Assembly: GCA_016192455.1 (NCBI GenBank)
Contig: JACPUC010000008.1
Span: 124,001-188,000 of the forward strand
DNA: 64,000 nucleotides
Reading direction: 5' to 3'
From: Candidatus Tectimicrobiota bacterium
Lineage (GTDB): Bacteria > JACPUC01
The notes below the pieces were generated by a model. The model saw nothing but the letters and a program-made list of their open reading frames with translations. It was not told where the DNA came from and ran no database searches. Shown one piece after another: positions 770 to 8,453 of this stretch. Numbering within the stretch: the stretch's first letter is position 1; every line of letters starts with the position of its first letter. A program made the position numbers and the translations under genes.

Positions 770-2131
770 GTGGCTGCCGATCTTCGCTCATTCCTGCGGG
801 CCGCCGAGGAGGCCGGCCGCGTTCGCCGCGTGCGGCGCGAGGTTGATCCGGATGCGAACATGGGGGAGCTCTGCTCGCAGAGCGACAACCCTTTGCTGTT
901 TGAGAGCGTCAAGGGCTACCCCGGCTGGAGGGTCGCGGCGGCGCTCATGCAGGGCCGCGTCGATCAGGCGCTGGCCCTCGGCTGCTCCACGGGCGACGTG
1001 GTGTCGCATCTGGCGGCCCGTTTCGCCGAGGGTCCGGGTGAGATCGCGCGGGTGAGCCGCGCCCCCGTAAAAGCGAAGAAGTTCAGCGGCGGAGCGGCGG
1101 ACCTCTTTCGGCTGCCGGTCTGCCGCCACTCGGAGGAGGATGGGGGGCGGTACATCGGAGCCGGTATCAGCCTCGTCCGCGATCCGACGTCGGGGGTGCA
1201 GAACACCACCTACCCGCGCACGCAGCTTCTTCCTGGCCGGCATCCTCGCGTCTTCATCTCCTCCCGCCACACCTGGGAGATCATCAATGCCTGGCGCCGG
1301 CAGGGACATCCACGCATGCCGATGGCGCTCGTCATCGGTCACCACCCGGCCTACGAGGTGGCCGCGGGGTACAGCGGCGAGCACCCCGGCTGGGGCGAGG
1401 AGGCGTTGGCTCCGCGTCTGCTCGGCGAGCCGCTCGAGGTGATCGAGTGCGAGACGTGCGATCTCCTCGTGCCCGCCGCCGCGGAGATCGTCGTGGAGGG
1501 TGAGCTGAAGCTCACCGATTTCGAGGAAGAGGGCCCGTTCGGCAACTACATGGGGAACTACGAGTTCAGCTTCACGCCGAGCCCCGTCTTCGAAGTGCGC
1601 TGCATCACCATGCGCGAGGATGCCTATTACCGGCACATCCAGTCCACCACCTGGACGGACCATCAATCGCTCTTCTGCATGCAGACCGAGGCGCTCGTCT
1701 ACCGGGCCTGCCGAGAAGCCGGGCTCGAGGTGCACGACGTCCACATCCCGCCCTGGGGCTGCGCCTGTCTCACGGTGGTGCAGATGACGCCGCGTCACGA
1801 GGAGGATGTGGCGCGCGCCCTGGACCTGGCCGTGAAATGGCCCATCACGCCGGCGCGCATGTCAAAGCTCGGAGTGGCGGTGGACCGCGACGTGGACATC
1901 TACGACGCGCGCGATGTCTGGTGGGCCGTGAGCGTGCGCGCCAACACCCGCCGGGCCGTCCTGGAGATTCTCGATCCCGAGAAACGCAGCCAACGCAGCC
2001 ATCGTCTGGGGATCGACGCCACCTGCCCGCCGCCGAAGAACGAGCGGCAGCGTTTCTTCCAATCCAAGGCCCGGCCCTGCGGTTGGGGCAAGGTGCGGCT
2101 GGAAGACTTCCTGGCGCCGGCGGGATCCTGA
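770..2131 (+). CDS. UbiD-family (prenylated-FMN dependent) decarboxylase
   Basis: 453 residues from a GTG start at 770, preceded by a purine-rich site (AGGGGAGGGAG). The N-terminus (ADLRSFLRAAEEAGRVRRV) and the segments NTTYPRTQLL, ALVIGHHPAYEVAAGYSG, EGPFGNYMGNYEFS and PVFEVRCITMRED are typical of UbiD/AroY/Fdc enzymes. These (de)carboxylate aromatic or alpha,beta-unsaturated acids using prenylated FMN. EGPFGNYMGNY lies where family members contribute active-site acid and base residues. No UbiX prenyltransferase gene is in the window, so the cofactor must be made elsewhere. The gene converges on the selenoprotein pair. Substrate unknown; it need not act in ubiquinone synthesis. Confidence 0.9.
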   Translation: MAADLRSFLRAAEEAGRVRRVRREVDPDANMGELCSQSDNPLLFESVKGYPGWRVAAALMQGRVDQALALGCSTGDVVSHLAARFAEGPGEIARVSRAPVKAKKFSGGAADLFRLPVCRHSEEDGGRYIGAGISLVRDPTSGVQNTTYPRTQLLPGRHPRVFISSRHTWEIINAWRRQGHPRMPMALVIGHHPAYEVAAGYSGEHPGWGEEALAPRLLGEPLEVIECETCDLLVPAAAEIVVEGELKLTDFEEEGPFGNYMGNYEFSFTPSPVFEVRCITMREDAYYRHIQSTTWTDHQSLFCMQTEALVYRACREAGLEVHDVHIPPWGCACLTVVQMTPRHEEDVARALDLAVKWPITPARMSKLGVAVDRDVDIYDARDVWWAVSVRANTRRAVLEILDPEKRSQRSHRLGIDATCPPPKNERQRFFQSKARPCGWGKVRLEDFLAPAGS

Positions 2132-2208: not shown

Positions 2209-3273
2209 CTACGGCTCGGCGATGAGCTTCGTCACGGCGCGGGAAACCGGCCCCTTGTAGTTCGCTCCCCAGCCGGGGATGAAGGCGGAGAACTTGCCGC
2301 CGGAGCCGCCCGCGGCGATGATCAAGTAGTCTTCGGGAGCCAGGACGACGGATTCGAGCTCATGGTCATGAGGCCCGAACTCCGCGAAGTCGAGGCCGCG
2401 ATGCTTCAGGTTGATGCGTTCGGCCTTGGCGTGCTCGACGAGGTAGGCCCGCACGTCATTCTTCGACCAGCCATGCTCCGCCAGCAGGCGCATGTGCTCG
2501 CCGCAGAGGATGACGGCGATCTCCGGGTGGCCGAGGGTGCGCGCCTCGCCGAGGGCAGAGAGGACGATGGACATGTGGTCGAGGATGCCCTCCGGGCGGT
2601 CGGTGATGTGGTCGCTGATCTGCACCGGCGAGTAGCAGGCGAAGACCGTCACCGCGCTGCGCCCGGCCGGCATGCCGCGCTCGACGCTGAACGGCGTCCA
2701 GGGGCTGTCGACCTCGTTCTCCGCGATGCAGAACGTGTACTTGCCGGGGCTGCCGAGGGTGGAGCGGTCGGTCACCTGGGAGACGGCGCCGCAGAGGTTC
2801 ATGACGACGAGGCGCAGGGCCCGCCCCAGCGTGGCGTTGGCCCGCACCCCCGGCCCGAAGATGTTGCCGCGGCAGTTGATCCGCAGGCGCTCGACGATGG
2901 GTCCATTGACGATCATGAGGAGTCCGGCCCCGCCGGTGCTGGAGGCCGGGCCGTTCAGGCAGAAGCGCTCTTCGCAGATGGCCTGCACCGCCGCCAGGAG
3001 CACCGGGAAGTACTCCGGCAGGCAGCCGGCCAGCACCGCATTGGCCGCCACCTGCTCGAGGGTCAGGGTGCGACGGCGCAGCGGGAACTCTCCCACGATC
3101 TCCTGGGCGTCACGCTCGGGGTCTCGACCCGCTCCCGCAATCATCGCTGCAACACGCTCGACCGTCGGGGGAACGACGGGCAGTCCATCGGTCCACCCCT
3201 GCTCGAAACAGTAGTCAAGGGCTCGGCCCTCCTCGACCGTAAGCCGCGCGGCCTTCGCTGCAGTGCCACCCAT
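2209..3273 (-). CDS. Conserved hypothetical protein encoded next to the UGSC selenoprotein
   Basis: 354 residues. I chose the ATG at 3273 because AAGGGAGG lies just upstream; an in-frame codon at 3306 is less likely. I cannot assign a known family. The N-terminus reads LTVEEGRALDYCFEQGWTDG. The middle is rich in Gly and Asn (LNGPASSTGGAGLLMIVNGP, NIFGPGVRANATLGRALRL), which suggests a compact alpha/beta enzyme. Several cysteines are present but no CxxC pair. There is no signal peptide or membrane segment, so it should be cytoplasmic. It is the second gene of a minus-strand pair, starting 103 bases after the UGSC gene. A joint redox or metabolic role is inferred from this context only. Confidence 0.75.
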   Translation of the reverse strand: MGGTAAKAARLTVEEGRALDYCFEQGWTDGLPVVPPTVERVAAMIAGAGRDPERDAQEIVGEFPLRRRTLTLEQVAANAVLAGCLPEYFPVLLAAVQAICEERFCLNGPASSTGGAGLLMIVNGPIVERLRINCRGNIFGPGVRANATLGRALRLVVMNLCGAVSQVTDRSTLGSPGKYTFCIAENEVDSPWTPFSVERGMPAGRSAVTVFACYSPVQISDHITDRPEGILDHMSIVLSALGEARTLGHPEIAVILCGEHMRLLAEHGWSKNDVRAYLVEHAKAERINLKHRGLDFAEFGPHDHELESVVLAPEDYLIIAAGGSGGKFSAFIPGWGANYKGPVSRAVTKLIAEP

Positions 3274-3376
3274 CCTGCGTGCCTCCCTTGAAGCCGGCAC
3301 GATCACCCCGCCCCCGTGCCGGCCGCATGTTGAATCTGCGCAGCTCCCCCCTGGAACGCTCCCAGGGGCGGCCGGC

Positions 3377-3973
3377 CTACGCCCTGCCGAGCTGCAAGGA
3401 GCGCCGCACCGCCGGCAGCGCCTGCTGCGCGCGCCGCTGCAACCCCTCCGCCGAGAGGTTGGCGATCGGGTGGGCGATGAGCGCCATGTCGTAATCCGCG
3501 AAACCCCACTGCGCCGCCGTGGCCCGCGCCGTGACCTCGAACTCCTCGGTGCAGATCACCGCCGCCGGTACGCCGCGCCGCTCCAACTGAATGCCGTCGA
3601 GCACACTGCCCGAACTGCACGACCCTCAGTCGCCGATGCCGACAAGGACGGCGGCGCACTTCCCGGCGAGCTCGGCCAGAATCTCCTCCTCGGCCCACGA
3701 GGACATCGATCTCTTGCGGCGGAAGATGATCTCCCCCACGCCGAACTCCTCCCGGAGCTGCGCCGCGACAGCTTCCAGGATCGGCGCGGCGCCCTGCTTG
3801 CGGTTCTCGAGGATGCCCAACGCCTTGCCCCGCAGATTGCCGGTGCGCGGCGCCGAGGTGATCGCCTCGCCTACCGCATGCGACACCGGTGAGACGAGGG
3901 TGACACGCCGGGACGCCGAAGCCGCCGGGGAAGGCGCCGGCCGGGCCGGGGTCCCAGGAAAGGACGCGCTCAT
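3377..3973 (-). CDS. UGSC-family selenoprotein (in-frame TGA read as selenocysteine)
   Basis: A conventional reading stops at TGA 3626-3628, but the frame continues without other stops to 3377. The junction reads VGIGD-U-GSCSSGSVLDG, which is the defining UGSC motif of a described bacterial selenoprotein family. With the ATG at 3973, preceded by AGGAGGAACC, the protein has 198 residues, Sec at position 116 and a possible resolving Cys at 119. The N-terminal half holds EAITSAPRTGNLRGKALGIL, then a Rossmann-like segment ending AAVLVGIGD. The C-terminal half (GVPAAVICTEEFEVTA, YDMALIAHPIANLS) resembles a second alpha/beta half. The U-x2-C pair suggests thiol/selenol redox chemistry, but the reaction is unknown. 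It is the first gene of the pair with 2209-3273. Confidence 0.88.
3596..3623 (-). promoter_or_regulatory. Candidate bacterial SECIS hairpin downstream of the UGA codon
   Basis: Starting two bases after the TGA, the minus-strand RNA can form GTCG (3623-3620) with CGAC (3599-3596), one T-T mismatch, then GCA with TGC. The 12-base apical loop (3615-3604) begins with G. A stem-loop immediately 3' of UGA with a G near the start of the loop fits bacterial SECIS elements that recruit SelB. The loop lies slightly closer to UGA than in typical examples. No folding was computed. Confidence 0.5.
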
Positions 3974-4149
3974 GATGGTTCCTCCTCTGCGCCGGCGGCG
4001 CCAGCTCTCGATTGCCACGCCGCACGCCGTCTCGATCGCCGCGGCGCGCGGTCCTGTGCCCACCGCTCCCCAGGGCGCTCGCCAGAGCGCCTCACGGATC
4101 GCCTGGAGGGGATGCCGCGCTCCAGGCGTGGAGATCTCTCCAGAGGGAC

Positions 4150-6385: not shown

Positions 6386-6473
6386 GCGGGACTGGACAGT
6401 CAAAGGAGGGGCGCCGCGGCCAGGTAGCCGCGGCCGGCGCGACGAGGCATGGGGGAGGGGCAGGGGTGGGCGC

Positions 6474-8453
6474 CTAGGAAGACTGCAGGGCCTTGGCGAC
6501 GACCCTGGAGAGCTCGACCATGCGCAGCGGCTTCTGGATGACGCCGCAGATGCCATTCGTGAGGTTCAACTGCTCTCGCTCCGAAAAGTCATACCCCGTG
6601 GAGAGGATCACCTTCACCCCCGGCTCCAACTGCTTGAGGATCTGGAAGCACTGCGCCCCACCCATGCGCGGCATGAGCAGGTCGAGGATCACCAGATCAC
6701 AGTGGGGCTCCAGGTTCTGGAAGCGCTCGACCGCTTCCTGGCCGTCGCCTGCCGTCACCACCTCGTAGCCGAGGCGGCGCAAGATGTCGGCCGCGGCGGT
6801 GCGCGCGAGCTCATCGTCGTCGACGAGGAGGATGCGGCCGCTGCCAAAGACCAGCTCTTCATCAGCGGCGGCCACAGCGATATCCGCCGAGGCGGAGGCG
6901 GCGGGCAGGTAAAGGCCGAAGGTCGTGCCCACCCCCTCCTGGCTCTGAACCTCAATCGAGCCGCCGTAGGCATTGACGATCCCGTAGACGGTGGCCAACC
7001 CCATCCCCGTCCCCTTCCCTTGCTCCTTCGTGGTGAAGAACGGCTCGAAGATGCGGGTGCGAATGCTCTCCGGGATGCCGCAGCCCGTATCGGTCACCGT
7101 GAGAAGGTAGTAGGGCCCAGGGGTGAGCCCAGCCCGGCCTCGGCACCAGGCGGCATCCAGCTCCACCCTTTGTAGGCCGAAGCAGAGTTCCCCCCCCTCC
7201 GGCATGGCGTCGCGCGCATTCACGGCAAGGTTCAGGAGCACCTGCTGCATCTGCCCGGGATCGCCGAGCACGATGGCCTTCTCGAGGCGCGCCGAGCGGC
7301 AGATGGTGATGTTCTTCTCCAGGGTCCGCCGCAACAGACTGATGGCCTCTTCAATGGTTGCCTCGAGGTCGATGGGGATATTCTGCCGTGTGCCATGGCG
7401 TGCGAAGCTGAGGAGTTGCGTCACCAGTTGGGAGCCGCGCAGCGCCGCTTTCTCGATCACCGTGGCGGCGTGCTCAATCTCGCTCTCGTTCCGCCACTGC
7501 ATTTTCAACAGCCCGGCGTAGCCCAGGACGCCGGTGAGGATATTGTTGAAATCATGCGCCACCCCGCCGGCAAGGGTGCCGATGGCCTCCAGCTTCTGCG
7601 ACTGGAAAAGCTGATCCTCAAGTTTGCGGCGCTCCTCCTCCGCTTGCTGCCGCTCGGCAATCTCCGCGCGCAACTGGCGGTTGGCCGCGACCAGCTCCAT
7701 GGTGCGCTCCTTCACCCGCGACTCGAGCTCGGTGCGCGCCGCCTGCAGCTCATCGTGCTGGCGATGGAGGATGCGATCGGCGCGGCGCACGATGAAGAAG
7801 AGGAAGGCATAGAGGCCCAGGAAGATGACGATGATGCGCAGGATGATAGAGCGCTGCTCGCGATTCGTCTGCTCCACCAACGAGGTCACGTCGGAGTAAA
7901 TCTCGAGGACGCTGGCGATCGCCGCGGGCTGGGTCGGCTGCCGAATGGGAATGTAACTCGCAAGCAGGTCGCGTTCCGCAACGGTTCCCTCGAAGGAGCT
8001 GGCGGCGTGGCGGTGCGTCAGCAAGCTCGTCACGTCGCCCTGGCGCGCCCTCAGGAAGCCGCTGTTCCCCTTATATTCCTTGCCGATGTTGCGCGCCTTT
8101 TTGCCGATGTCGCGCGGATCGGTGGAGAAGACCGTGCGCCCTTCGAGGTCGTAGACCTTAACCTTGACGACCGCAAGTCCCCGCATCATCGCCAACACTG
8201 CCTGCCGCAGGTCGGCTGTCTCCTGATGCGCCCGGAGGGCCTCGTCGTTCAGCTCCTCCACATGGGTGAGGAAGGGGGCGAAGCGCGGCCAGAGTGAGTT
8301 GGCGAAGGCCTGCGCGAGCGCCACATTCTTGCTCTCGGCGAACTCGAGGAGGTGTCGTTTGATCGACGACGGCGCGATCACGCCCGCAACGACGACGACC
8401 AGGCTGAAGGCAAGGAAACTTGTGATCGTGAAGTACCTGAGGAGCCTGAACAT
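6474..8453 (-). CDS. Membrane-bound hybrid sensor histidine kinase with C-terminal receiver domain
   Basis: 659 residues from ATG 8453; the frame is open further upstream, but the transmembrane start fits this codon. TM1 is at about 8-27, an extracytoplasmic sensor of about 175 residues follows (KVKVYDLEGRTVFSTDP resembles Cache-type sensors), and TM2 is at about 203-222. A coiled coil spans 228-285. The HisKA domain has His300 in GGVAHDFNNILTG and leads into an HATPase domain (ARDAMPEGG, DTGCGIPE, GKGTGMGLATVYG). A receiver domain covers about 540-659, with the acidic cluster DDD, phosphoacceptor Asp591 in LDLLMPRMGG and Lys641. His-to-Asp signalling within one protein is expected. No cognate regulator is adjacent, so output is unknown. 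Confidence 0.92.
   Translation of the reverse strand: MFRLLRYFTITSFLAFSLVVVVAGVIAPSSIKRHLLEFAESKNVALAQAFANSLWPRFAPFLTHVEELNDEALRAHQETADLRQAVLAMMRGLAVVKVKVYDLEGRTVFSTDPRDIGKKARNIGKEYKGNSGFLRARQGDVTSLLTHRHAASSFEGTVAERDLLASYIPIRQPTQPAAIASVLEIYSDVTSLVEQTNREQRSIILRIIVIFLGLYAFLFFIVRRADRILHRQHDELQAARTELESRVKERTMELVAANRQLRAEIAERQQAEEERRKLEDQLFQSQKLEAIGTLAGGVAHDFNNILTGVLGYAGLLKMQWRNESEIEHAATVIEKAALRGSQLVTQLLSFARHGTRQNIPIDLEATIEEAISLLRRTLEKNITICRSARLEKAIVLGDPGQMQQVLLNLAVNARDAMPEGGELCFGLQRVELDAAWCRGRAGLTPGPYYLLTVTDTGCGIPESIRTRIFEPFFTTKEQGKGTGMGLATVYGIVNAYGGSIEVQSQEGVGTTFGLYLPAASASADIAVAAADEELVFGSGRILLVDDDELARTAAADILRRLGYEVVTAGDGQEAVERFQNLEPHCDLVILDLLMPRMGGAQCFQILKQLEPGVKVILSTGYDFSEREQLNLTNGICGVIQKPLRMVELSRVVAKALQSS

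Follow-up and report, generated by a model that had tools for sequence, protein, structure and literature searches.

A UGSC-family selenoprotein gene and its constant partner point to a possible two-part reductase related to glycine reductase

The window, a stretch of 64,000 nucleotides from a Candidatus Tectimicrobiota bacterium, carries a UGSC-family selenoprotein gene and, 3' of it on the same strand, a gene for a partner protein. The features of this locus are as follows.

3981..3985, minus strand, Shine-Dalgarno sequence GGAGG of the UGSC gene, read from the sequence
3377..3973, minus strand, UGSC-family selenoprotein gene, 198 aa with Sec116, stop codon TAG at 3379-3377, assigned from the reading of the frame and matches to PF24696 and NF041046
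3626..3628, minus strand, in-frame TGA predicted to be read as Sec116, the first residue of U-G-S-C, with TGA or a Cys codon at that column in all homologues
3597..3613, minus strand, bacterial SECIS hairpin of 6 bp with the 5-base apical loop AGUGU, starting 15 bases past the first base of the TGA
3282..3287, minus strand, Shine-Dalgarno sequence GGGAGG of the partner gene, read from the sequence
2209..3273, minus strand, partner gene, 354 aa, beginning 103 bases past the UGSC stop and fused to UGSC in other genomes

The start codon of the UGSC gene is ATG 3973, and GGAGG lies a few bases before it. The frame (3973-3377) has TGA 3628-3626 as the sole internal stop, exactly as in the original prediction, which had also correctly recognised the U-G-S-C motif around this codon (...GIGD-U-GSCSS...). 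The predicted splitting by ordinary gene calling does occur, and translation table 11 yields ORFs of 180 and 75 aa. When the TGA is read through, the merged 198-aa product scores 185 bits against Pfam PF24696 (curated cut-off 25 bits) and 142.3 bits against NCBIfam NF041046, UGSC_fam (curated cut-off 125 bits), and the PF24696 match covers both flanks of the TGA. The codon-position GC is gene-like to the same degree before and after it, and the columns of Sec116 and Cys119 show no variation across 20 homologues. The window gene is a real Sec-encoding gene, and a chance match is excluded. On its profile matches it is an additional member of the already known, uncharacterised UGSC selenoprotein family, with which it has in common the sequence family, the U-G-S-C motif, the in-frame TGA and the SECIS element. 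Three top candidates for further TGA read-through in the window were also tested; these are stops between adjoining genes (glycosyltransferase/carbamoyltransferase) or have no family match.

The source genome (4.46 Mb in 31 contigs, 88% complete) encodes the selenocysteine machinery that had been anticipated for this organism. It possesses a tRNA-Sec with a tca anticodon (75.5 bits, cut-off 47 bits), SelA (596 bits) in a gene adjoining that of SelB (366 bits), and SelD (389 bits), whose gene itself contains an in-frame TGA. Two more UGSC genes of this genome have one TGA each at the same position. A true stop at the Sec116 column was sought among 105 homologues, and 93 of them were found to have TGA and the other 12 a Cys codon (TGC or TGT). 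Just 3' of the TGA the homologues keep a 6-bp stem with a 5-base AGU-type loop. In the SECIS alignment 95.8% of the cells are paired and three pairs are altered on both sides. Covariation scores 0.419 here and 0.116 in shuffled alignments, with none of 500 shuffles as high and slid positions reaching at most 0.104; the stem overlaps the coding sequence, so that protein conservation constrains it as well, but the two-sided changes are not readily explained thereby. If the TGA were a true stop, the gene would be a pseudogene or a split pair, and the two ORFs obtained under the standard code would fit such a reading. It is nonetheless extremely improbable, given the distribution of TGA and Cys codons over homologues from many phyla, the covarying SECIS, the full Sec machinery and the coding signal both 5' and 3' of the TGA. 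A pseudogene or a sequencing error was ruled out by the covarying SECIS together with the census of 105 homologues. The assignment of the TGA to Sec in the window gene is thus supported to the limit of what sequence evidence allows.

TGA-form homologues are spread over many phyla. The Cys forms that come from named organisms belong to Mycobacterium, Candidimonas, Parapusillimonas, Acetobacteraceae and haloarchaea, among others. A quick tree needs six changes between Sec and Cys, at least three of them forced by well-supported branches. Since Cys forms are uncommon but do exist, Sec is not indispensable in UGSC. Two other homologues (L108 5333-5839 and L131 5221-5724) read U-G-S-S, with the TGA kept and the second Cys replaced by Ser.

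Profile comparison shows homology between UGSC and the C-terminal Sec domain of GrdB, the protein B of glycine reductase. Alignment by hhalign gave a probability of 96.3% (P 1.8e-9) over 93 columns and placed U-G-x-C on U-G-x-C. The register was unchanged when four motif columns were masked (87.9%, 3e-6) or eight (81.9%, 1e-5), whereas the reversed, shuffled and GrdB N-terminal controls all remained below 2%. PF07355, the N-terminal GRDB domain of about 347 aa, has no match in UGSC up to E 10; lacking this domain, UGSC is not a GrdB. GrdB, FarB and PrdB nevertheless resemble it in the homologous C-terminal Sec domain with U-G-T/S-C, in Sec encoded by TGA, in having a second subunit and, as far as can be inferred, in the use of thioredoxin. 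Nucleophilic attack by Sec is described as the means by which GrdB-type proteins break the C-N bond in glycine or sarcosine and, in the case of FarB, the C-F bond in monofluoroacetate (PMC10838667). In the literature searched, whose coverage was partial, no statement of a relation between UGSC and GrdB was found.

In the three GrdB genes of the source genome and those of its relatives, the TGA lies exactly at the end of the Pfam GRDB model, and from that codon on the sequence reads UGTCTRCG...KELERAGLPT...HPLGN. The model thus seems to end at the Sec codon. The source genome also encodes a GrdA with an in-frame TGA; this gene and the three GrdB genes are at loci L180, L137, L146 and L149. Short ORFs of about 140 to 280 aa whose match is confined to positions 203-347 of the GRDB model, its last third, were observed at L139-L145, L148, L151 and L153, and these are possibly a further stand-alone GrdB-like family.

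A Pfam search up to E 10 gave no match for the partner protein, and none of 54 members of its family, the window partner included, was matched by NCBIfam. The source genome has exactly three UGSC and three partner genes, paired one to one, though at one locus (C9) the two are 2.9 kb apart. Among 80 partner loci from public genomes, scored for UGSC within the fetched stretch around each, 73 have UGSC near or fused, and 72 have it on the same strand. The median gap is 91 bases, and about 0.8% would be expected by chance. In several genomes natural UGSC fusions carry a partner homologue as the second half. Judged from these gene arrangements, the partner is a constant companion of UGSC, and the pairing suggests that the two make up one reducing enzyme, a relative of glycine reductase. 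A UGSC-containing protein fused to a domain named Unknown_1, with a supposed thioredoxin-like fold, appears in a 2008 GOS metagenome survey (PMC2398784). In the window, unlike in that fusion, the partner is a separate adjoining gene. Unknown_1 is presumably the partner family described here.

Exceptions and unusual settings of the pair were also noted. Poribacterial partner homologues at L105, L115 and L130 are about 270 aa long, shorter at one end, and have no UGSC in the fetched stretch. TGA-type UGSC and partner genes occur on conjugative plasmids, namely the IncP plasmid p2-T1 of Acidovorax sp. T1 (L176) and plasmid pBEN of Paracoccus versutus (L173). On p2-T1 no full-length annotation corresponds to the two genes (6428-7954), and the 15-kb stretch that contains them also holds IS1071 and an IS91-like element.

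The partner was predicted by AlphaFold2 with a pLDDT of 91.6, and structural searches with the model gave no convincing relative. In the family D29, R144, N146, R151 and E185 are invariant and C84 and C182 near-invariant, and these residues look like an active site. Matches to GrdE (PF09338) were absent up to E 10, and no match of the partner to GrdB was found either; in having no GrdE as partner UGSC differs from GrdB, whose second subunit is GrdE. The partner model weakly resembles alpha chains of class I fumarase (Foldseek E 4e-4 with a TM of only 0.29; VIA Z 5.3 over 182 residues), but comparison of profiles found nothing to support this (0.4%). As the partner is without detectable kinship to GrdE, GrdB and class I fumarase, the chemistry may differ from that of protein B. 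UGSC and partner might, for instance, catalyse a non-cleaving reaction of an organic acid, such as reduction of a double bond, addition forming a thioether or selenoether, or a hydratase-like step with the partner catalytic and Sec as a redox switch. The fumarase likeness, the invariant and near-invariant residues, and aconitase X and CoA ester lyase genes in the neighbourhood are consistent with it. The profile comparison speaks against it, however, and so do the cysteines: the Fe-S cluster of fumarase is held by three, and the partner has just two conserved. We regard a non-cleaving reaction as rather unlikely.

The UGSC model (pLDDT 90.8) shows a Rossmann-like alpha/beta sheet with the topology b-a-b-a-b-U-a-b-a-b-a, in which Sec116 starts the helix following strand 3. 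Structural searches place flavodoxin-like, receiver-type and other Rossmannoid folds closest to it. The top match is chain H of 8S7V, a methyl-coenzyme M reductase activation complex (Z 10.2, 131 residues, 3.4 A); from its length this chain is probably Mmp7, which has an McrC-like domain. This match is a lead only, about one Z unit above unrelated folds; the likeness is one of the predicted structure, with no match in sequence, and the complex carries Fe-S clusters. Sequence searches of the PDB with UGSC, partner and GrdB gave no meaningful match, and no solved GrdB structure for comparison was found there. Thioredoxin is not among the structural matches listed, an absence that excludes nothing. 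The modelled fold appears to differ from the thioredoxin-like one suggested by the GOS survey. In line with that survey, UGSC might have the thioredoxin-like fold of a general thiol oxidoreductase or of a peroxidase and serve to protect cells or repair disulfides, with the partner as substrate protein or adaptor. Such a function would agree with the U-x-x-C motif and with AhpC/TSA and redoxin genes in 5 of 150 neighbours scanned. It is improbable, however, in view of the confidently modelled Rossmann-like fold and of the sequence homology leading to GrdB. Furthermore, genomes carry multiple paralogues that each have a separate partner and lie beside genes of organic-acid catabolism, which suggests substrate-specific enzymes instead.

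Neighbours of UGSC and partner genes serve the transport and catabolism of organic acids and include TctC, TRAP, SDR, CoA transferase, CoA ester lyase and aconitase X. A tally of neighbour families for a common substrate returned generic catabolic genes only, and the neighbourhoods vary too much to name one. One UGSC paralogue of the source genome lies about 3.3 kb 3' of GrdE-GrdB genes, together with a fumarate-reductase-like flavoprotein. At L043 (2623-13547; C5:52000-71000 of the source genome) a single strand carries, over about 11 kb, GrdE, Sec-containing GrdB, an AMP-ligase, partner, UGSC, a fumarate-reductase-like flavoprotein, a 2Fe-2S protein and an NMT1-type binding protein. UbiD-type decarboxylase genes occur close to two UGSC loci out of the three in the source genome (window 770-2131 and L042 5651-7297); such genes were not seen among the commonest neighbours in other genomes. 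Diverged UGSC-partner fusions are found near aconitase X and DUF126 on plasmids of Sporomusa (L172 3884-9038) and Vibrio europaeus (L174 4049-8056), a context that is a possible substrate clue.

Thioredoxin genes accompany several Cys-type pairs on plasmids. The gene order is trxB-trxA-partner-UGSC in Arthrobacter and partner-UGSC-trxB in Roseovarius, and in Variovorax trxB is close by. Thioredoxin reductase (trxB) was found in the fetched stretch at 5 of 12 Cys-form loci versus 1 of 70 Sec-form loci; the Fisher P of 1.6e-4 is only indicative, since two of the Cys loci are closely related, one of the matches, in Neorhizobium, is broken into two frames, and the stretches are of unequal length.

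The homology to GrdB, the constant partner and its fusions, the thioredoxin genes, the Grd-adjacent paralogue and the organic-acid neighbours favour a two-part reductase. We propose, with about even confidence, a two-subunit thioredoxin-driven enzyme that would apply GrdB-type selenol chemistry to a small carboxylic acid, a substrate class suggested by the transporter and catabolic neighbours and the GrdB analogy. UGSC and partner would form one enzyme, in which the selenol of Sec116 may attack a substrate held jointly with the partner and Cys119 of U-x-x-C may resolve the intermediate as a selenide-sulfide. Thioredoxin would then re-reduce the enzyme and be recharged by thioredoxin reductase. 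GrdB, PrdB and FarB serve as the analogy for the likely reaction, in which a C-X bond beside the carboxylate would be cleaved reductively; the substrate probably differs among UGSC paralogues. The existence of Cys forms, the small number of Sec forms with trxB beside them, the incomplete independence of the Cys loci, and a partner unlike GrdE all weigh against this proposal, as do neighbourhoods too varied to name a substrate. The original prediction called the function of the family unknown; experimentally this still holds, although the range has been narrowed by the partner gene, the homology to GrdB and the nearby genes for thioredoxin reductase.

More tentatively, protein-B-type reductases may have a second branch, so far unrecognised, in which UGSC serves as a stand-alone Sec domain. 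UGSC and the partner of about 350 aa would there form a two-subunit enzyme, driven by thioredoxin, that reductively cleaves C-X bonds of environmental carboxylic acids and occurs across many bacterial phyla and, in its Cys forms, among haloarchaea. What is added here is evidence for an abundant family as one half of a two-part, GrdB-related reductase. Its constant partner, its GrdB-type Sec domain and the Cys forms near thioredoxin genes make UGSC a testable enzyme: the natural Cys forms need no Sec machinery for their production and could be assayed together with the thioredoxin system that belongs to them.
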